Virus record (IMG/VR): IMGVR_UViG_3300046011_007272
Coordinates: 1 to 24,213 of that record
DNA: 24,213 nt
Strand: one strand, 5' to 3'
From: a virus
Below are positions 10,016-24,213 of the stretch, piece by piece. Positions within the stretch are counted from its first letter, which is position 1. Each line of letters opens with the position of its first letter. A model generated the notes under the pieces. The model was not told the DNA's origin, made no database searches, and worked only from the letters and a program-made list of their open reading frames with translations. The translations under genes and the position numbers were made by a program.

Positions 10016-10032
10016 AATTTTGTCTCCTGCTT

Positions 10033-10080
10033 TGTGTTATATAAACACATGAAAGTATAATATTATATAATATTATATAA
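10033..10080. promoter_or_regulatory. Divergent control region between ssb operon and thyX operon
   Basis: The 84-base gap between two divergent operons holds a dyad, TGTGTT-ATATA-AACACA (10033-10049), and next to it a direct repeat of TAATATTATA followed by further TATAAT-like sequences (10056-10080). The arrangement, operator-like dyad beside A+T-rich -10 sequences, suggests a shared switch controlling both directions. No convincing -35 hexamer was identified for either side. Confidence 0.4.
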
Positions 10081-10099
10081 TAATTTTCTAGGAGAAAAG

Positions 10100-10771
10100 A
10101 TGAAGATAAATGTATCAGATGGCTTTGTTGAATTGGTTGACCATATGGGAGATGATTTAGCAATAGTGAATGCTGCTCGTGTCTCTTATGCTGGAGCAAG
10201 TGATGAATGGACTGATCGAGATGAAAGGCTTTTGCAATATCTTTGGGATCACAATCATTCATCTCCCTTTAGACATGGCAACATAAAATTTAGAATTAAG
10301 GCACCAATCTTTATTTTAAGACAATGGATGAAACATCAAGTTGGCTGTGCATGGAATGAGCAATCAGCACGATACACCAAGATTGAAGATAGCTTCTTTT
10401 ATCCTGAACATTTTAGACTGCAAGACACTAAAAACAAGCAGGGATCAAGCGGATATTTAGATGATGATCAAGATATGAATGCTCTGGTCTTAGTCGCTGA
10501 AAGCTATAATCTGGCATACAACAATTATGAAAAGTTGCTTGAAATGGGAGTATGTAGAGAGCAAGCGAGAATGATTTTGCCCGTTGGGATTTATAGTGAA
10601 TGTATTTGGTCGGCTAGTACTCAGGCAATCATGCACTTTTTAAAGCTTCGTCTTGACCATCATTCTCAATTTGAAATGCAAGAATTTGCAAAAGCTGTAT
10701 ATACTATTGCGTCTAGTATCTTCCCAAAAACGATGGAGCTTATCGATGCAATGCCTAAGATGCCACAATGA
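10100..10771 (+). CDS. thyX: FAD-dependent thymidylate synthase ThyX
   Basis: A 223-residue flavin-dependent thymidylate synthase, which methylates dUMP to dTMP using methylene-tetrahydrofolate, FAD and NADPH. Supporting segments are FRHGNIKFRIKAPIFILRQW, then NEQSARY (86-92), GVCREQARMILPVG around 160-173 (consensus 'G..rE.AR..LP'), and the C-terminal SASTQAIMHFLKLRLD and SQFEMQEFAKAV. The signature RHR-x7-S is altered to Lys78-His79-Gln80-x8-Ser89: both arginines are replaced and one residue is inserted. An AGGAG-type site (CTAGGAGAAAAG) precedes the ATG. It starts a rightward operon with dCMP deaminase, which makes its substrate dUMP. Family call confident; activity slightly uncertain because of the motif change. 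Confidence 0.88.
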   Translation: MKINVSDGFVELVDHMGDDLAIVNAARVSYAGASDEWTDRDERLLQYLWDHNHSSPFRHGNIKFRIKAPIFILRQWMKHQVGCAWNEQSARYTKIEDSFFYPEHFRLQDTKNKQGSSGYLDDDQDMNALVLVAESYNLAYNNYEKLLEMGVCREQARMILPVGIYSECIWSASTQAIMHFLKLRLDHHSQFEMQEFAKAVYTIASSIFPKTMELIDAMPKMPQ

Positions 10772-12117: not shown

Positions 12118-12690
12118 TCAATCAAGCAATTTTACTTTCTGCAATATAGGATTTAATTTTAAAAATCTTTCTAAGCTTTCTTTAGCTTCTTCATCTCTTT
12201 TTTGTTTTTTTATTTTCATTTCAGCTGATCGTTTAGAGTAAATGAAAGCATTCTTTTTAACTCCTCTCAATCCTCCAGTTTGCAAATTATACATGCATTC
12301 TAAATCTTCTGAAAACCGAGACAAGACTTGATCTGTTAAAATGCTAGCTTCTGCATTCCATGCTTCCCATTGTGTTGGATAAAACTTTAAAATGTATCTC
12401 AAAAAATTATCCTTGCCTTCTTTTTTTATGGCATCAAGGATTTTAACACCTGATCCATAATAGTTTTTTAGAGGTGTTGTTGCACTACCATGACGAGCTG
12501 TTTTTTTACCGATATAGAAAAAACCATTGCTCTTATTCACAGTCAAATAAATCCAATGATAATCTCCATCATGTCCCTTAGTTGGAGTGATGTTCTCATC
12601 AATGTTATTGATAATGCTTTCAACAAAGATTTGTGCTTCATCATGGATGAAATTGATATCACCTGATGAGTAAGTTGGATTAAGTTTCAT
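12118..12690 (-). CDS. GIY-YIG endonuclease-like protein
   Basis: A 190-residue protein with a GIY-YIG-type nuclease core. WIYLTVNKSNGFFYIGKK (about residues 46-63) is the WIY...YIG pair of strands; NYYGSGVKILDAIKKEGKDNF and an E-A-S-I helix (EAWNAEASIL, carrying the likely metal-binding Glu) follow, with YNLQTGGLRG at the end of the domain. The basic C-terminal tail (about 150-180, KRSAEMKIKKQKR) may bind DNA. Phage proteins of this kind are often free-standing homing endonucleases. Its ATG overlaps the initiator stop (ATGA), so it is co-translated with the replication initiator, next to the probable origin. Homing versus a replication-linked role is undecided. Confidence 0.75.
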   Translation of the reverse strand: MKLNPTYSSGDINFIHDEAQIFVESIINNIDENITPTKGHDGDYHWIYLTVNKSNGFFYIGKKTARHGSATTPLKNYYGSGVKILDAIKKEGKDNFLRYILKFYPTQWEAWNAEASILTDQVLSRFSEDLECMYNLQTGGLRGVKKNAFIYSKRSAEMKIKKQKRDEEAKESLERFLKLNPILQKVKLLD

Positions 12691-13994
12691 ATTCTTCCCT
12701 TTTGAGAGAGTGAGATTGTTGTGTTAGAAAAACATGCTTTAAATCTATTTAAATCGCTCTTTGGCTGTGATGGTATAGGCAAGCCATTTAAATCATTCCT
12801 AGATGCTAAAATCATGCATCCATTGAAAGAGTTTGTCAGGTCAATAAATTGATCGATTGTGAGCTCAAATACAGAATTCATTCTTGATGCACTAAAATCA
12901 TCGATGCAGATGACATCCATCTTTGACAAAAGATCAGAAATAGATGGTATTGGCTTATTCTCAGCTTTGGCCTTATCATATTCTGATTTTCTCCATCGAT
13001 CGAGCTGATCTAGTGTTCCATAGAAAAACCGACCGACACCATGAAGACGATTGGCAAAATGTCGATTTGCGATGATATGCTTTAGCAAGCCAACCATGAG
13101 ATGAGTTTTTCCACTACCTGCTGATCCAGTGATAAAGATTTTTTTATCTTGATCTTTGGCCATTGATCCAAGAGCATCTTTTTGATCTTGTGATAGCATA
13201 TTGCCTTTAAAGTTTTCTCGATACATGGCTTTATGCTGTTCTGTAAAATAGCAGCTTGCCAATTGCCTGGATATGGCATTGATCCTTGATCGTTCTTTGT
13301 CGTGCTGATTTACATCTAGCAATGAGTAGCATGTACCATCATTGCGATTTGACCATTCAACAGGTGCATCTTGAAAATCAGCCACAAGACGACCGTCCTT
13401 GAATTTCATTTTATTTTCAATCTGCGACCACGCTTCACTTTTTGAGCTCGTCTTTTCTTTTACGTAGTTTTCTTTTATTTCATAATTAGTTTCATTAGTT
13501 TCATATATATATGATTGTAGTGTTTTTGGTATGTCGATTGTAGTGTTTTCAGTAGTTTCGATTGTAGTGTTTTTGGTAGTTTCGATTATACCGTTTTCAG
13601 TAGTTTCGATTGTATTGTTTTTGGTATAATCCACATTTGCCGAGCTTGCAATCATCATTTTGAATTCTGATGTCTTCATCCAGTATCGATTCACCACTTT
13701 AGGCATGATTGTGAATTGTGTTTTGCTGATCTTCTTTTTCTTTTGGATCAAGCCGAGCTCGCAAAGCTGATCAATAGACTTTGTTATCATTCGATCAGTT
13801 ACTCCCATCTGTGATGATAGATCTGAGTAGGTGCATTCAATTGTCATATCTTGATTGGAAGTTTCAAACTCGTAAAACTCAATCAATCGATACATCAAAG
13901 CAAAGCCATGAGTAACCTTTTGAAGATCTGGACATCTCAGAAGATTGCCAATAATGAACTGGAAATTGTCAAATTTTGAATTTTTTAGTTTCAT
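12687..13994 (-). CDS. Replication initiator / DnaC-like helicase loader ATPase
   Basis: A 435-residue protein in three parts. Residues about 25-95 form a winged-helix DNA-binding domain (YSDLSSQMGVTDRMITKSI, DQLCELGLIQKKKKIS). Residues about 122-185 are a repetitive Thr/Glu/Asn linker encoded by the iteron array and adjacent A+T-rich DNA. Residues about 260-435 are an AAA+ ATPase with Walker A (GSAGSGKT, 290-297), Walker B (VICIDD, 361-366) and sensor-like MILASRN. This combines an O-like origin binder with a DnaC/DnaA-type helicase loader in one chain. The gene diverges from the HTH-DnaB unit, so initiator and helicase share a control region. It probably loads the phage DnaB at the origin inside its own gene. 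Confidence 0.8.
   Translation of the reverse strand: MKLKNSKFDNFQFIIGNLLRCPDLQKVTHGFALMYRLIEFYEFETSNQDMTIECTYSDLSSQMGVTDRMITKSIDQLCELGLIQKKKKISKTQFTIMPKVVNRYWMKTSEFKMMIASSANVDYTKNNTIETTENGIIETTKNTTIETTENTTIDIPKTLQSYIYETNETNYEIKENYVKEKTSSKSEAWSQIENKMKFKDGRLVADFQDAPVEWSNRNDGTCYSLLDVNQHDKERSRINAISRQLASCYFTEQHKAMYRENFKGNMLSQDQKDALGSMAKDQDKKIFITGSAGSGKTHLMVGLLKHIIANRHFANRLHGVGRFFYGTLDQLDRWRKSEYDKAKAENKPIPSISDLLSKMDVICIDDFSASRMNSVFELTIDQFIDLTNSFNGCMILASRNDLNGLPIPSQPKSDLNRFKACFSNTTISLSQKGRI
13456..13631. other. Candidate replication origin: iterons plus A+T-rich stretch
   Basis: Within the initiator gene, five 24-bp-type direct repeats (13513-13631) abut an A+T-rich stretch (13456-13512) with ATTAGTTTC doublets and an ATATATATAT run. 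Iterons beside an easily melted region inside the initiator gene, between its DNA-binding and C-terminal domains, is the layout of the lambda O/ori region. The layout is seen directly; origin function is inferred. Confidence 0.55.
13513..13631. repeat. Five tandem 23-24-bp iterons inside the initiator gene
   Basis: Units lie at 13513-13535 (23 bp), 13536-13559, 13560-13583, 13584-13607 and 13608-13631 (24 bp each). The plus-strand consensus begins GATTGTAGTGTTTT and ends GTAGTTTC. Four units are in the same reading frame and encode variants of ETT[EK]NTTI. The fifth (13513-13535) lacks one base, so the same DNA is read in another frame (IPKTLQS). DNA identity kept across a frame change argues for selection on the DNA. 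Confidence 0.8.
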
Positions 13995-14013
13995 ACTCTC
14001 TCCTAGATTGAAA

Positions 14014-14071
14014 TTTTATTTGACTATACGATAATTATATTATAAAGATTATAAAAAAATTTCAAATAAAA
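14014..14071 (+). promoter_or_regulatory. Promoter/operator of first HTH gene and helicase
   Basis: TTGACT (14020-14025) is followed after 15 bases by TATAAA (14041-14046). The region is flanked by inverted TTTTATTTGA (14014-14023) and TCAAATAAAA (14062-14071). It lies between the divergent initiator and HTH genes. The same block and spacing recur at 15817-15851. The 15-base spacing is short for sigma70, so strength is uncertain; the inverted arms look like operator half-sites. Confidence 0.5.
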
Positions 14072-14082
14072 AAGGATTCATC

Positions 14083-14307
14083 ATGACTAAAAAATTGTCA
14101 GTGTTGCTTTTAAAGTCAAATAAGACCGTTGCTGAAATCGCAAAAGAGTCTGATATCACCGTTGGCCGTCTTTATCAAATCATGAAAGATGATGCTAGTG
14201 CACCTCTCAAACTTGCTTTAAAGCTTGAGGCAACAACAAAAATCTCTCATCAATTCTTCTTGTACTCAGCACCAACTTGCTATCAATTCGTAGGTGATCT
14301 TCTATGA
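14083..14307 (+). CDS. Small HTH regulator (paralog 1)
   Basis: A 74-residue protein with an HTH near the N terminus (residues about 15-36, TVAEIAKESDITVGRLYQ) followed by ALKLEATTKISHQFFLYSAP and a C-terminal YQFVGDLL. It resembles short Cro/YdaS-like phage DNA-binding proteins. A second copy at 15911 shares the ALKLE-x2-T-x-I-x-HQFFLY-x2-P-x4-QF pattern. AAGGA lies upstream of the ATG, and its stop overlaps the helicase start (ATGA). It probably regulates its own promoter, which carries inverted half-sites, and hence the helicase and divergent initiator. Whether it represses or activates is unknown. Confidence 0.7.
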   Translation: MTKKLSVLLLKSNKTVAEIAKESDITVGRLYQIMKDDASAPLKLALKLEATTKISHQFFLYSAPTCYQFVGDLL

Positions 14308-15785
14308 CATACTTTCAAAATCCCGAAGACGGCAACAAAGAAGTAACCTTTGAATATATCATGTCTCAATCATGGGAAAGCATGAATGATGATCGCCAAA
14401 TCCTTTTGATGAGCAGAATCAGATTTGTTTTAACTCAGCTTCTTTGGCCTTCATCTATCACATACACATACAAAGATGGATCAACAGCTGTATCTCTTGA
14501 ACAGAGAAGTGAGGCCGTTAAAATCATGATCTTCAAGATGATCCCTGATCCTCGTGTTTTTATTGATGATACATGCATCAGGCTTTTTGAAATTTGCGTT
14601 GAGCTCAGACAAGAGCAAAAGCCAATCAATTTTGAAAATGTCGCTGATCTCTATCATAGAACAGCCGAAGATAAAAAGAAGGCATTAAAAAAGATGATGC
14701 CAGCTTATCACATCATGTCATGGATCATGGAAAATCTTGATCCTTGTCATGTCTATTATGGAGGACCTGCGATGATCCATGTAGTTGAAGATCATATCAA
14801 TCGCATATATGATGACTTCACCAGCTTAAGACTATCTCAAATCTATAGATACAAAGAAATCGCACTCGCTCATGGATATTCTCTTAAAGAGATTGATGAT
14901 CTTTTCCTTGAGTCTGAAAACAAAATCAAGGATATGAAACCAAAGCCAAATGTTGGGTTGTCTCAACAATTAAATGAGTTATGGGATTCAATGGTCAACT
15001 TCAAGCAAGGTTTGACAAGTGGTCTTGATAATTTAGATCAGATCACTAAAGGATGGAAAGACGGCTGTTTATATGTGGTCGCTGGTCGTCCTGCTATGGG
15101 AAAGACGGCTGTGTCTTTGACTTTTGCTTTAAATGCGATGCGAGTTCAATCAAAGAAAGTTATGTTTTTCTCTTTGGAGATGCCAAGCACTCAACTTCTC
15201 AAGCGTCTAGCCAGCAATTGGAGTGGCATCGCTCATTCTATTTTTGATCAGCCTTATGATACTCTTAGCGATGGATTTAAAACCAGGATGGCAGAGTCTT
15301 TCTCTCAGATAAATGGGATGCCTCTTGAGATCATAGATAGAGCAGCATTATCCATTGAAGAGATGCGATCAATATGTGATGTAAAAAAGAGAAGTGAAGA
15401 TATAGGCTTGATCATAGTTGATTATCTTCAACTGATGACAGCTCCAGCTATGATCAGAGAGCAAGAGATATCTCAGATCAGTCGAGGCTTAAAAGCTTTA
15501 GCTAAAGAAATAGGTTGTCCAGTGATTGCACTTGCTCAGATCAATCGAGGAGTTGAGCAAAGAGCAAATAAACGGCCGCTATTGAGCGATCTTAGAGAGT
15601 CAGGAGCGATTGAGCAAGATGCTGATGTTGTGATGATGCTATATCGTGAACACGCCTATGATGATCTAGCATCAGAGACAGATATGGAAATCATCGTCAC
15701 AAAAAACCGCCATGGAGAATGCAAGACGGCACATGTTGAATTTTTAGGATCATGCCAAAGAATTGCAGATAGACAAAGTTTTTAA
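14304..15785 (+). CDS. dnaB: DnaB-like replicative helicase
   Basis: A 493-residue hexameric 5'-3' DNA helicase for the phage fork. The C-terminal RecA-like domain has Walker A GRPAMGKT (261-268), FFSLEM (288-293), IIVDYLQLM (370-378) and the DnaB4-type AQINRGVEQR followed by LLSDLRESGAIEQDAD (426-441). The entry segment TSGLDNLDQITKGW (238-251) is also typical. The N-terminal 220 residues are helical and match DnaB N-domain collars only in outline; there is no primase-like motif, so host primase is probably used. It is coupled by ATGA overlap to the HTH gene. Its likely loader is the divergent initiator/AAA+ protein. Confidence 0.92.
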   Translation: MTYFQNPEDGNKEVTFEYIMSQSWESMNDDRQILLMSRIRFVLTQLLWPSSITYTYKDGSTAVSLEQRSEAVKIMIFKMIPDPRVFIDDTCIRLFEICVELRQEQKPINFENVADLYHRTAEDKKKALKKMMPAYHIMSWIMENLDPCHVYYGGPAMIHVVEDHINRIYDDFTSLRLSQIYRYKEIALAHGYSLKEIDDLFLESENKIKDMKPKPNVGLSQQLNELWDSMVNFKQGLTSGLDNLDQITKGWKDGCLYVVAGRPAMGKTAVSLTFALNAMRVQSKKVMFFSLEMPSTQLLKRLASNWSGIAHSIFDQPYDTLSDGFKTRMAESFSQINGMPLEIIDRAALSIEEMRSICDVKKRSEDIGLIIVDYLQLMTAPAMIREQEISQISRGLKALAKEIGCPVIALAQINRGVEQRANKRPLLSDLRESGAIEQDADVVMMLYREHAYDDLASETDMEIIVTKNRHGECKTAHVEFLGSCQRIADRQSF

Positions 15786-15816
15786 GTATTGTTTAAAATT
15801 TTATTATTTATTTTAT

Positions 15817-15870
15817 AATTTTATTTGACTTGATTATAATTTTATTATAAACTAAGCATATCAAATCAAA
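15817..15870 (+). promoter_or_regulatory. Promoter/operator of second HTH gene
   Basis: TTGACT (15825-15830), 15-base spacer, TATAAA (15846-15851), preceded by the AATTTTATTTGA block, copies the arrangement at 14011-14046. Inverted arms TTTGACTTGAT (15824-15834) and ATCAAATCAAA (15860-15870) match at 10 of 11 positions. The gap from 15786 also holds other A+T-rich sequence with no GC-rich terminator after the helicase. Confidence 0.5.
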
Positions 15871-15910: not shown

Positions 15911-16144
15911 ATGAAAAAAAATATCAAAAGCTTAACTATTCGTCTTAGATGTCAGCTTACTTTGGCAGACATCGCAAAGTTAATGGGTATTTCTAGACAA
16001 GCTCTTCATCATCACATTAAAGATGAAAATACATGCAAGTTGTCAAATGCTCTAAAGCTTGAAGAAATCACAGGTATTAAACATCAGTTTTTTTTGTATC
16101 CAATGCCTATCGCCGCTCAGTTTTTATCTGAAGAAAACCAATAA
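15911..16144 (+). CDS. Small HTH regulator (paralog 2)
   Basis: A 77-residue HTH protein (TLADIAKLMGISRQALHHH at about residues 17-35) followed by NALKLEEITGIKHQFFLYPM and AAQFLSEENQ. It is a clear paralog of the 14083 protein with a different recognition helix, so the two may read different versions of the inverted operators. The ribosome binding site is poor (GGTAAG-TA-ATG), suggesting low or regulated translation. It leads a rightward unit ending with the RecT-like gene. Together with the duplicated promoter, this points to duplication of a promoter-plus-regulator cassette. Confidence 0.7.
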   Translation: MKKNIKSLTIRLRCQLTLADIAKLMGISRQALHHHIKDENTCKLSNALKLEEITGIKHQFFLYPMPIAAQFLSEENQ

Positions 16145-16614: not shown

Positions 16615-17490
16615 ATGGCAAATCAAAGACTTACAGAATCTCTCTCAGATTTAAATGCAATCGCTGATAGCATGGAATCAATCGTCAAGCTCGCAGGCTT
16701 TCTCACTGCAGGCACCAACTGGACCGCTCAGCAACTCGTAACAGCCTATCTCTCTTATGGCATGATGCATGGCTGGAACATTGCTCAAACAATGGAAAAG
16801 ATGAATGTCATTAAAGGCAAGATCACCTATCAAGCTTCTGCTATGTTTGGCATTGTGATTGCTTCTCCCAAGTGTAAATCATGGAAGGTTCTCTCAAATA
16901 CTGATGATGAATGCTCAATTGAATTTACAAGAGGCGATAACAATCAAAAGTATGTAGTCACCTTTACGATTGCGATGGCACAGAGACAAGGCTTGACAAG
17001 TAATCGTCAATGGCAAAATATGCCCAAGCAAATGCTTATGGCTCGATGCAAGAGCATGGCAGTCAGAGATGTTTTTGGCGATGTGATCAGCGGCTATGAT
17101 GCAATCGAGATGGCTGATAGCATGGATATGCCTGAAGATGAAAGACTTGAGATTTTAAGTCAAGAACTTGACACCCCCATCTATGCTGAGAGACAACCTG
17201 TGTCAAGAGCAAAGCCAGGCGTCAAGGCTGGAGCTGATACAAAAGCAAAGCCTTTACAAGTGCAACCTGTGCAACCTGTACAAGTGCAACCTGTACAAGT
17301 GCAGCAATCAGCACCGCCAAAGATTCAAGCACCGCCACCTGATCAAGCTTCACTATTTCCAAGCGAGCAAAAGAAAGCCGTTGAGCTTCAAGCTTATCGA
17401 GATCAAGACATGAATGTCCATAAATGGAAAGATGCAGATATGGATGAAGATGATAGTAGAGATTGGAAAGACTCATGGGGGATTAAATAA
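16615..17490 (+). CDS. RecT-like single-strand annealing protein
   Basis: A 291-residue protein. The first 170 residues follow a RecT-like phage annealing-protein pattern: TAYLSYGMMHGWNIAQTMEK, MNVIKGKITYQASAMFGIVI, VTFTIAMAQRQGLTSNRQWQ, and the characteristic MPKQMLMARCKSMAVRDVFG followed by DVISGYDAIE (about 136-165). It would anneal complementary single strands during recombination and replication. No partner exonuclease is seen next to it. A low-complexity Pro/Gln/Val linker (about 215-245) joins a short acidic C-terminal tail (DADMDEDDSRDWKDSWG), which may bind SSB or other partners. It ends 8 bases inside the convergent reductase gene. Confidence 0.75.
   Translation: MANQRLTESLSDLNAIADSMESIVKLAGFLTAGTNWTAQQLVTAYLSYGMMHGWNIAQTMEKMNVIKGKITYQASAMFGIVIASPKCKSWKVLSNTDDECSIEFTRGDNNQKYVVTFTIAMAQRQGLTSNRQWQNMPKQMLMARCKSMAVRDVFGDVISGYDAIEMADSMDMPEDERLEILSQELDTPIYAERQPVSRAKPGVKAGADTKAKPLQVQPVQPVQVQPVQVQQSAPPKIQAPPPDQASLFPSEQKKAVELQAYRDQDMNVHKWKDADMDEDDSRDWKDSWGIK
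17256..17303. repeat. Short tandem repeats encoding QVQPV linker
   Basis: ACAAGTGCAACCTGT-type units, mixed with shorter GCAACCTGT copies, repeat head to tail and encode the Gln/Val/Pro linker of the RecT-like protein. Such repeats probably expand and contract by slippage, varying linker length without shifting frame. Confidence 0.6.
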
Positions 17491-20984: not shown

Positions 20985-21457
20985 TTGTCTATCTCCATCA
21001 AGTACAAGATTGAGCCACCGTTCAATGTGTAATTGTAGATATTAGCAATTGCAGCAGCGGCTGTTTTTTTATAGTAAATTGTGAGCACATCCCCAGCAGT
21101 GGCTGAGTAGGAGAAAAAAAGCGGCTGATATCTAGTAAGATTCGCTATCGATGACATCGAACTGACAGCGCTTTTAAATGCCTTATTTTGTGTTGAAAGC
21201 AAGCTGCCATTGACCTTTACATAAAATTCAAATTGGTCTGACCCCGACATATAAGGCTTGAAAAAACCTAGATAGTTTTTTCCTGCAAGGGATACTGATC
21301 CACTTGATAGAGTCGCAGAAATGCCTGTACCACTAAGGGATGAATCTAAAGAATAAATTTGTTCCGTTACGGTTGATGATGAAACAGCGACATTTGTTGA
21401 TCTGCCAAATGAGCCCATTTTAACAGGCTTGTTCTGTGTTTTTAAATTAAATGTCAT
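20981..21457 (-). CDS. Hypothetical structural protein after the fibre gene
   Basis: A 158-residue beta-rich protein starting at 21457, where ATGA overlaps the fibre stop. Segments GKNYLGFFKPYMSGSDQFEF, YVKVNGSLLSTQNKAFKSAV and GDVLTIYYKKT look like a beta-sandwich, and the sequence is rich in Ser and Thr. As the first gene after the fibre it may be a fibre tip, a fibre-assembly chaperone or a separate receptor-binding subunit. Family not recognised. Confidence 0.5.
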   Translation of the reverse strand: MTFNLKTQNKPVKMGSFGRSTNVAVSSSTVTEQIYSLDSSLSGTGISATLSSGSVSLAGKNYLGFFKPYMSGSDQFEFYVKVNGSLLSTQNKAFKSAVSSMSSIANLTRYQPLFFSYSATAGDVLTIYYKKTAAAAIANIYNYTLNGGSILYLMEIDK

Positions 21458-23916
21458 ATCAAAATCCAATTTGTACCTGTTGAGATTACAGTAGCATTTA
21501 CATACTGAGCTAAGAGCTGAATTGTGGCTTGACCGTCAATTGTTTGAGCACCATTACAAGCGACTGTTGTCGTGGCTGTACCAAGCCTCTTGATATCATA
21601 TCGTATGCCTGAGCAGGCTGTAGCATCTGGAAGTGTGATAGTGACAGCCGATGAGCCTGATACTGTATAGACCTCTTGAAAAACATTTGAGGATGGAGTT
21701 GAGATTGTAAAATTTGATGTCTTATCTAAAACAGAAGGTCTTGATGCTGATGATGCTGTTGAGATCACCCCGTTTGTGATAGAAATGCCACTGCCTGCAC
21801 TAAAAGCACCTCTCGCAAGAGTATCGCTGAAATATTTGTTTGTTGTACCTTCTGAGAGATTATCTGTACTAAAAGATGCTAAAGACACGGTGCTATCAAT
21901 ACGATTTGAGCCATCGATATATGAATAAGAGATGCCTGTATGTGTGCCACCTGTGAAGATCGCAGCTGCTTGATCTTGAGCTTGCTCATCAGTGTATTGT
22001 GTGATCGTGGATGCGATTGTGCCTGATGTGATAGAAATACCAGTGCCTGCAGTGTAGTAGGATTTCACCGAGGACACAGATGGAGCCTGATCGGTTTGAG
22101 TGCCTGCCATTGAGTTTACAACAGCGGCGCTCTTTGCGAGTGTATCAGTGTATTGTGTGATTGTACTTGCGATTGTACCACTAGACAAAGAAATGCCTGT
22201 GCCTGCTGTATAGTATGATTTCACCGATGAAACAGATGGAGCTTGATCGGTTTGAGTGCCTGCCATGCTATTTACAACCGCGGCAGTTTTTGCAAGGCTT
22301 GATGAAAAATATTTATTTGTAGAGCCTTCAGTTAAATTATCGGTTGTCTTTAAAGCAAGTCGATCATCCCATCTTGTCGTGGTATAGTAAAGATTTGTGC
22401 CTTCAGCGATGTCGCTAGTAGTCAAAGAGACTGTACCTGTTTGTCCATTGACAGACAAAACACCGCCGCTGATCCCAAACTGCACCCATGTTGTGCCGTC
22501 ATAAATCCAACTAGAGCTATCATCTGTTTGAATAGCGACATCACCCTCTTGAGCAGTCAAGGCAAGTCTAGCGGCTTGATCAGCCACAACATGGACATCA
22601 GTGATTGCCAAAGGTGGTAGGTGATTTGTAGGCACAAGACCATTTGCATCAAGCTCGCAAAGACCATTGTTTTGCCCTTTTTGAGCTGTGATTCTAGCGT
22701 CTGCATCTGTGTCTGTGTATTGTGTGATTGTGCTTGCGATTGTGCCTGTAGTGATAGAAATCCCTGTACCTGCACTAAAAGCGCCTCTCGCAAGAGTATC
22801 GCTAAAATATTTGTTTGTTGCACCTTCTGAGAGATCATCTGTATCAAAAGAAGCAAGGGAAACAGTCGCATCGATACGATCTTGAGCATCACTATTTACA
22901 AAGCTGATGCCAACATGACTACCATTTGCCAAGGCTGTGCCTGCTGCATCTCTTGCCATCTCATCGGTATATGCACTTGGGATTGTTGGCAAATCTCTAA
23001 GCTCGCTATATGATCCACTAAATGAGGTTGTCGCACCTGTGAGCAAATTGTAAACATATTTTGAATTGCTTGTATATTGTGAAACCGTGTTGTTTGCAAA
23101 GCCTGTACGACCTACAAAAACAAGACCAACTAAATTTGCTTGGCTTGCATTGATGCCATCGCAATCAGCTAAAATGCACTGAGTAGGAGTAGCAAGACTA
23201 GATGAAATCGCAACACCACCAAAAGAACAGCGATTAAAATAAATTGTAGCTGTTACACTTGATGCAATAGTCACAGCCCCCGCAAACTCGCAATCTTCGA
23301 AAGTGATAAAATTCGCAGTCGCATTTGTGATTGTTGTAGTGCCTAAAAAGGTGACATCTTTAAAAATATGACGGCCTTGAGTACCATTGATCAATGTATT
23401 GCCCTCAACTTGAAGGCTTCTAATCCTGATTCTTGTACAGTCAACGCCGCTGATTGTCAGACCTCGACCACCAGCGAGCTCGCAAATATCACCAACACCA
23501 CCAGCAGGTGGCAAGATTAAAAAATTGCTCTTTGTGAGTGATAAGGTTGATCCACCATATGATCCACTAGATACAAAAATAACATCACCTTGACCAAAAG
23601 AAGCATCATCATGAACGGCTTGAATGTCGTTGACACCATCATTTACATAGAAAGAATTGCTGTAAAGCCTATTGGCTTCAAGTGATGCAATATCACTTTC
23701 AGCTGTATCGACTCGACCTTCAAGCGTTGTCAAATCGCTATCTGTTGCCTTAGCATCTAAATCAGTTTGAAGAGCTGATGTAAAATATTGACGATCAGCA
23801 TTTAAGCCTGCATCAATATTATCGGTTGTTAAAACAACAACTCCAGTTTCACCATTCACTGAATCAACAGCACCACCACCGCCACCACTTACAGGAGGTT
23901 TGATAATAATAGCCAT
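21454..23916 (-). CDS. Tail fibre/tailspike with beta-helix domain and internal repeats
   Basis: An 820-residue adhesin read from 23916 (AAAGG upstream, 9-base spacing). It opens with a glycine run and the virion-attachment-like VNGETGVVVLTTDNI motif, then a short coiled coil (VDTAESDIASLEANR). Residues about 80-260 form a probable right-handed parallel beta-helix (repeating strands such as RIRIRSLQVEGNT, HIFKDVTFLGTTTIT, NFITFEDCEFAGAV). A second VNGQTGTVSLTTSDI module and several repeats with LSEG-[AST]-TNKYFS and TGIS-[IL]-x-[ST]-GTI follow. The end (about 730-820) is a compact beta module. It probably binds, and may degrade, surface polysaccharide. No catalytic residues could be assigned. 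Confidence 0.8.
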   Translation of the reverse strand: MAIIIKPPVSGGGGGAVDSVNGETGVVVLTTDNIDAGLNADRQYFTSALQTDLDAKATDSDLTTLEGRVDTAESDIASLEANRLYSNSFYVNDGVNDIQAVHDDASFGQGDVIFVSSGSYGGSTLSLTKSNFLILPPAGGVGDICELAGGRGLTISGVDCTRIRIRSLQVEGNTLINGTQGRHIFKDVTFLGTTTITNATANFITFEDCEFAGAVTIASSVTATIYFNRCSFGGVAISSSLATPTQCILADCDGINASQANLVGLVFVGRTGFANNTVSQYTSNSKYVYNLLTGATTSFSGSYSELRDLPTIPSAYTDEMARDAAGTALANGSHVGISFVNSDAQDRIDATVSLASFDTDDLSEGATNKYFSDTLARGAFSAGTGISITTGTIASTITQYTDTDADARITAQKGQNNGLCELDANGLVPTNHLPPLAITDVHVVADQAARLALTAQEGDVAIQTDDSSSWIYDGTTWVQFGISGGVLSVNGQTGTVSLTTSDIAEGTNLYYTTTRWDDRLALKTTDNLTEGSTNKYFSSSLAKTAAVVNSMAGTQTDQAPSVSSVKSYYTAGTGISLSSGTIASTITQYTDTLAKSAAVVNSMAGTQTDQAPSVSSVKSYYTAGTGISITSGTIASTITQYTDEQAQDQAAAIFTGGTHTGISYSYIDGSNRIDSTVSLASFSTDNLSEGTTNKYFSDTLARGAFSAGSGISITNGVISTASSASRPSVLDKTSNFTISTPSSNVFQEVYTVSGSSAVTITLPDATACSGIRYDIKRLGTATTTVACNGAQTIDGQATIQLLAQYVNATVISTGTNWILI
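21776..21905. repeat. Dispersed 130-bp repeat in fibre gene, copy 1 (copy 2 at 22751-22880)
   Basis: The segment starting GTGATAGAAAT and ending near ATACGAT recurs at 22751-22880 at the same length. It encodes the NKYFSDTLARGAFSAG module plus the flanking LASF and GISIT segments. The two copies bracket the tandem 156-bp pair, so recombination between them could delete about 975 bp in frame. Confidence 0.7.
21988..22299. repeat. Tandem 156-bp repeat in the fibre gene
   Basis: Two head-to-tail copies, 21988-22143 and 22144-22299, each start ATCAGTGTATTGTGTGAT and encode 52-residue units containing NSMAGTQTDQAPSVSSVKSY. Many differences are silent, so the copies have been diverging while keeping the protein. 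Confidence 0.75.
22751..22880. repeat. Dispersed 130-bp repeat in fibre gene, copy 2
   Basis: Direct repeat of 21776-21905 in the same orientation, encoding NKYFSDTLARGAFSAG with flanking GISITTGTI. The shared stretch around ACCTCTCGCAAGAGTATCGC differs at only one or two bases between copies. Confidence 0.7.
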
Positions 23917-23917
23917 G

Positions 23918-24213
23918 TTAAACAACCTTTCTATTGAATGCACAAATCAATTTTAGATCATCACCACTTGCACCCTTTTTATAGGCGATAGTTGTGATTG
24001 CTCCTCCTTTTGTACCACCGCATTGAATATCAATAGCACCACCAGCCAAAACAAAAATTTCATTTGTTGTACTATCTGATGAAGTAGTACGAGCACGAAG
24101 TTTAAAGAAGGCGGTTGATGATCCTGGATTATAGACGCTAATGTCACAAAAAGCGAGATCTGCATCAAGTGCTGATCCTGTTGTGCTATCAATGAAATCG
24201 CTTGAGTTTAGAT
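23918..24213 (-). CDS. Tail structural protein, C-terminal part (runs off right edge)
   Basis: An open frame enters from the right edge with no start in the window and ends at a TAA at 23918-23920, 1 base before the fibre ATG. The visible 97 residues are beta-rich and Ser/Thr/Gly-rich: AFFKLRARTTSSDSTTNEIF, then VLAGGAIDIQCGGTKGGAIT and a final DLKLICAFNRKVV strand. It is probably a virion surface or tail component just upstream of the fibre. Family not recognised. Confidence 0.55.
   Translation of the reverse strand, partial: LNSSDFIDSTTGSALDADLAFCDISVYNPGSSTAFFKLRARTTSSDSTTNEIFVLAGGAIDIQCGGTKGGAITTIAYKKGASGDDLKLICAFNRKVV

Follow-up and report, generated by a model that had tools for sequence, protein, structure and literature searches.

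The replication-initiator gene of an uncultured phage holds, between its DNA-binding part and its loader-like part, a tandem array of direct repeats abutting an A+T-rich tract. Judged from the sequence and its comparison with relatives, this array is very probably the replication origin of the phage, placed inside its own initiator gene in the manner of lambda and SPP1, with initiator and helicase loader fused. The window, i.e. the whole stretch of DNA analysed here, comprises 24,213 bases and is the record of an uncultured phage. Its relevant features, with the evidence for each, are as follows.

12687-13994, minus strand: initiator gene (ORF, 435 aa)
13644-13994, minus strand: winged-helix domain, residues 1-117, candidate iteron-binding domain (AlphaFold, Foldseek, weak PHROG matches)
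13608-13631, minus strand: iteron 1, in frame, GATTATACCAAAAACAATACAATC (repeat analysis, weight matrix)
13584-13607, minus strand: iteron 2, in frame, GAAACTACTGAAAACGGTATAATC (repeat analysis, consensus scan, weight matrix)
13560-13583, minus strand: iteron 3, in frame, GAAACTACCAAAAACACTACAATC (repeat analysis, consensus scan, weight matrix)
13536-13559, minus strand: iteron 4, in frame, GAAACTACTGAAAACACTACAATC (repeat analysis, consensus scan, weight matrix)
13513-13535, minus strand: iteron 5, out of frame, nearest the A+T-rich tract, with an 18-bp core ACCAAAAACACTACAATC at 13513-13530
13452-13512, minus strand: A+T-rich tract ATATATATATGAAACTAATGAAACTAATTATGAAATAAAAGAAAACTACGTAAAAGAAAAG, candidate DNA-unwinding element (stability, frozen synonymous sites)
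12690-13202, minus strand: DnaC-like AAA+ helicase-loader domain, residues 265-435 (Walker motifs, PHROG, Foldseek)
14304-15785, plus strand: phage DnaB-type replicative helicase (PF03796, 2.7e-83; phrog_19, 6.4e-77)

A winged-helix part and a loader-like part in one reading frame

Residues 1-117 were modelled by AlphaFold as a winged helix with the order H-H-E-H-H-E-E-H (mean pLDDT 70). Among the Foldseek neighbours of this part in a viral library are replication initiators, replisome organizers, RepL and an entry resembling the N-terminal part of lambda gpO, and those in the PDB are mostly winged helices of the MarR/ArsR type. The PHROG families annotated as 'replication initiation O-like' match weakly, at 0.003-0.004 for the window protein and at best 2.7e-5 for its relatives, and Phage_rep_O, the lambda O family, is absent from the Pfam families listed for the window protein at E values up to 0.1. 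The C-terminal part has the hallmarks of a DnaC-type loader, namely a Walker A motif (GSAGSGKT, residues 290-297), a Walker B motif (CIDDF, residues 363-367) and an AAA+ fold, the latter taken from a low-confidence model. PHROG families of DnaC-like loaders were matched by 7 of the 7 family members tested (best E value 9.5e-10), and the Foldseek list for the full-length model had two DnaC AAA+ structures, 3ecc and 3ec2, in third and fifth place (E values 6e-3 and 1e-2). Confidence in the structure models is low to moderate; the full-length one is poor (mean pLDDT 43), and the order of folds alone was taken from it. The initiator falls short of the PF01695 (IstB/DnaC) cut-off, with 14.4 bits against 24.1, and all of its NCBIfam scores lie below the respective cut-offs. 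These data confirm that a winged-helix part and a loader-like AAA+ part are fused in one chain, as a preliminary description of the sequence had proposed in contrast to lambda. The dnaB gene is transcribed divergently from the initiator gene and is its neighbour also in the relatives; judging from this neighbourhood, the phage DnaB is the likely cargo of the AAA+ domain.

Repeats in mixed reading frames beside an A+T-rich tract

The array at 13513-13631 begins at about codon 122 of the initiator, between the winged-helix and AAA+ domains, and consists of five direct repeats of 23-24 bp that follow each other at steps of 24, 24, 24 and 23 in gene order. Four units are in frame and encode octapeptides of the ETT[EK]N type. 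The spacing to iteron 5 is 23 instead of 24, so that its reading is shifted by one base and yields PKTLQS in place of TKNTTI. TRF reported 4.6 copies of a 24-bp unit, and a scan with the 24-mer consensus allowing up to 3 mismatches recovered 3 copies, compared to 0.00 expected in shuffles. A weight matrix trained on the four in-frame copies alone ranked iteron 5 fifth in the whole window, with 22.2 bits, followed by the next site with 13.0. The earlier observation of five such repeats between the two domains, the last of them one base short and read in another frame while matching the others as DNA, is thus borne out. With the same weight matrix, no second repeat cluster was found in the window or in two relatives of 30-31 kb.

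On its 3' side the array abuts the A+T-rich tract, in which a 60-bp window ranks among the 0.6% of lowest stability in the record. An A+T-rich stretch at 13456-13512, noted beforehand, is therefore real and overlaps the tract as delimited here. Equal or greater A+T-richness and instability are seen in three intergenic stretches (10031-10090, 14013-14072 and 15792-15851), which are probably promoters. In codon choice the tract is frozen: for codons 161-181, 18 of the 18 codons whose amino acid is invariant across four lineages are invariant as DNA, too, while the corresponding numbers elsewhere in the gene are 26 of 68, 12 of 42 and 53 of 111 (about 40% for the rest of the gene). Such a long run of frozen codons was not reproduced in any of 100,000 shuffles. 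A search with the tract as a pattern returned family members and, apart from these, an unrelated 'NTYIYETNHLQC' gene.

Codon conservation also climbs over residues ~380-430, at the gene's 3' end, which may be explained by co-conversion with the adjacent gene for a GIY-YIG (SegE-like) homing endonuclease. Co-conversion cannot account for the frozen tract, since the most diverged stretch of the gene separates the tract from the 3' end. The GIY-YIG gene itself (12118-12690, minus strand) overlaps with its start the end of the initiator gene by 4 bases. Its product is 100% identical in relative L017, whose initiator is 83% identical; the gene is missing from this spot in L007, the initiator of which otherwise resembles that of L005, and in L011, and it lies elsewhere in L012. 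This suggests that it invaded recently and rewrote the last few residues of the initiator.

Constraint on the DNA among relatives

The initiator has relatives on 16 IMG/VR contigs with 72-100% protein identity, one of which is a fragment without the repeat region. They form few lineages, four of them well separated, which are not fully independent. Among INPHARED phages and GTDB genome contigs no relative of the initiator was found, and an alignment search with the AAA+ part alone yielded no further lineages. All relatives that cover the region possess the array, an out-of-frame last copy and the A+T-rich tract at the same place, with the number of in-frame copies varying from 3 to 5 among close relatives. 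In L017 an in-frame TAA (L017:6325-6327) occupies initiator codon 109, between winged helix and array, with Met codons soon after; this reflects a sequencing error, a defective gene, or a gene naturally divided into a DNA-binding and a loader part.

The out-of-frame copy tracks the lineage-specific changes of the in-frame copies in the window, in L011 and in L012/L013: it reads ACCAAAAATAGTAAGATC alongside in-frame units ACCAAAAATGGTATAATC in L011, and ACCCAAAAAGGTAGAATC alongside ACCCAAATGGGTATAATC in L012/L013. An exact repeat as last copy would create an in-frame TAA in L011 or L012, and this is dodged with different bases (AGA, GAA). To quantify the match, the peptide of the out-of-frame copy was held fixed and random synonymous encodings were scored against each lineage's own units. 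For iteron 5 of the window, 162 of 200,000 encodings match the repeats equally well; for five relatives the counts per 200,000 are 240, 1383, 608, 45 and 61. Over the repeat region as a whole, the protein is less conserved than the rest in the majority of distant comparisons, and codon choice is usually more conserved.

Between L011 and L012 every copy exchanges TKNG for TQMG in the peptide, and the DNA goes from TACCAaaaaTGGTA to TACCCAaaTGGGTA, the dyad being retained and improved. Hereby both arms shift jointly, from TACCA...TGGTA to TACCCA...TGGGTA, and the first copy of L012 is a 24-bp near-palindrome with 11 of 12 pairs. Significance of the dyad is confined to the first copies of L012/L013. 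The units of the window lineage are weak palindromes, for which reason dyad symmetry was rejected as a family-wide trait and little weight is put on it here. Taken together, the comparison of homologues supports the notion, as put forward in the preliminary description, that selection acts on the repeat DNA and not on the peptide: relatives alter the peptide yet keep the dyad, and the last copy is always out of frame. This is the reverse of a kept peptide encoded by scrambled DNA.

Could the repeats simply be Thr/Asn/Glu linker repeats expanded by slippage, with a young fifth copy that recently lost a base? Copy number does differ between close relatives, and in-frame E/T-rich 24-bp GAAACTAC repeats are common in unrelated phage genes: a scan of IMG/VR for GAAACTAC-N16-GAAACTAC gave at least 120 stretches, and among the matches listed an initiator is encoded by known family members only, the others being mostly E/T-rich coding repeats or chance. 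For this reason the in-frame copies alone prove nothing, and the argument for DNA-level selection stands on two other findings, the copy in the shifted frame and the constraint on synonymous sites. The out-of-frame arrangement must be old, as it is common to lineages with codon identity of just ~60% at shared residues. Together with the tracking of lineage-specific unit changes by the out-of-frame copy, and with the freezing of synonymous sites in the A+T-rich tract, which slippage cannot produce, this makes a slippage origin very improbable.

A role of the repeats as operators, be it for autoregulation of the initiator or for a repressor, for instance the Cro-like HTH protein of gene 14083-14307, we regard as very improbable. 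The array lies ~360 bp into the coding region, comprises 4-6 copies and abuts the frozen tract, and according to the weight matrix the divergent promoter region (13995-14082) is devoid of any copy, even though the palindromic units of L011-L013 resemble repressor operators and there is a small HTH gene immediately upstream. Finally, the constraint might act on the mRNA, with repeat hairpins regulating translation or stability. The array of L012 surpasses shuffles in folding by a wide margin (z = -7.1), but that of the window reaches z = -2.0 with one long-range hairpin; RNA hairpins were thus rejected as the common denominator. As direct repetition is family-wide while RNA structure is not, and a search against Rfam gave no match, a constraint on the mRNA is exceedingly improbable.

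The putative origin, known systems and neighbouring genes

An intragenic origin is expected to combine tandem direct repeats between the DNA-binding and C-terminal parts of an initiator gene, a neighbouring A+T-rich unwinding element and conservation at the DNA level; the window has the repeats, the tract at 13452-13512 and both mixed frames and constrained synonymous sites. We infer that such an array would exert origin activity by iteron binding, tract melting and helicase loading. Cooperative binding of the 24-bp iterons would fall to the N-terminal winged-helix domain, which is probably dimeric; once occupied, the array would strain and melt the A+T-rich tract that adjoins it in the 3' direction. 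To the strand thus opened, the DnaC-like AAA+ domain of the same polypeptide would then deliver the phage DnaB helicase. What iterons and tract encode would merely be a tolerant linker peptide, acceptable in any frame and at variable length provided that no stop arises. On balance we favour the more specific assumption that one polypeptide combines origin recognition with helicase loading and carries the origin in its own linker codons, the iterons co-varying with the protein across lineages.

GC skew, for which a switch at the repeats had been anticipated, does not show one there. The cumulative skew has its minimum at ~9.7 kb, in step with a switch in gene orientation. At third codon positions, the sign of the skew is inconsistent to the left and to the right of 13.5 kb. 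GC skew is hence neither for nor against an origin at the array.

The suggested likeness to the O/ori region of lambda holds in position, frame usage and flanking DNA. In the lambda record, O codons 117, 123, 131 and 139 mark the beginnings of the four annotated iterons, whose codon phases are 0, 2, 2 and 1, so that out-of-frame iterons are the rule there; they are 18-bp units around an A tract, spaced by 20, 24 and 23 and read in three frames. As in the window, where the array starts at about the same codon, they lie in mid-gene, and an A+T/purine-rich tract follows on the 3' side. There is no detectable sequence kinship, neither of O nor of the iterons, and O and P of lambda are separate proteins, whereas the window phage has a fused AAA+ loader-like domain and its own DnaB. 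To our knowledge, lambda P is not an AAA+ DnaC homologue.

Stx phages carry 6 iterons and 13 additional O residues (PMC7466680), which resembles the copy-number variation in the family described here. In vitro, lambda needs no more than the two iterons closest to its A+T tract (PMC7466680). In oriL of Bacillus phage SPP1, direct repeats and an A+T-rich DUE are situated inside gene 38, which encodes the origin-binding protein (PMC6316719). SPP1 resembles the window phage in these intragenic elements and in having a phage DnaB-type helicase, gp40 (PMC6316719), and differs from it in that gp38, the loader gp39 and gp40 are separate proteins and in its second origin, oriR, no second array being found in the window. 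Other phages, Escherichia phage PhiR49_2 being an example, likewise have an O-like initiator, a DnaC-like loader and a helicase side by side, but as three separate genes in one orientation instead of a fusion divergent from dnaB. Compared to DnaC/DnaI loaders (PDB 3ec2/3ecc), with which the window protein shares the AAA+ domain according to Foldseek and PHROG, its N-terminal part is a winged helix-turn-helix followed by an iteron-encoded linker, and the curated cut-offs are missed.

Intragenic iteron origins as such are already known; what appears new is the lineage and the fusion of an initiator with a DnaC-like loader in the gene that holds the putative origin. A literature search of incomplete coverage returned nothing on point for fused initiator-loader phage proteins. 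If the origin reading is true, the gene would be a minimal, single-gene version of lambda O/P/ori, a self-contained module of initiator, loader and origin. Such a system would allow one to ask how an iteron-bound initiator passes DnaB to the melted strand without handover by a separate loader. It would also illustrate neatly how a DNA-binding constraint can rule a coding sequence, with the peptide free and the DNA fixed, and an out-of-frame repeat copy could serve as a cheap, general diagnostic of intragenic origins in uncultured phages.

Around the replication genes, several further features were noted. Two small Cro-like HTH genes flank dnaB (14083-14307 and 15911-16144, plus strand), the former being ~43% identical to a second copy in the relatives. 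Tandem 15/24-bp repeats at 17251-17303 encode VQPVQVQ within an ORF without Pfam match (16615-17490), and two 156-bp tandem repeats (21988-22321) lie in a large tail-fibre-like ORF (21454-23943). L002 and L003 have the same initiator as the window, yet their copies of the ThyX-like gene (10100-10771 in the window) are only 78% identical, and this divergence is a sign of mosaic exchange beside the replication module.
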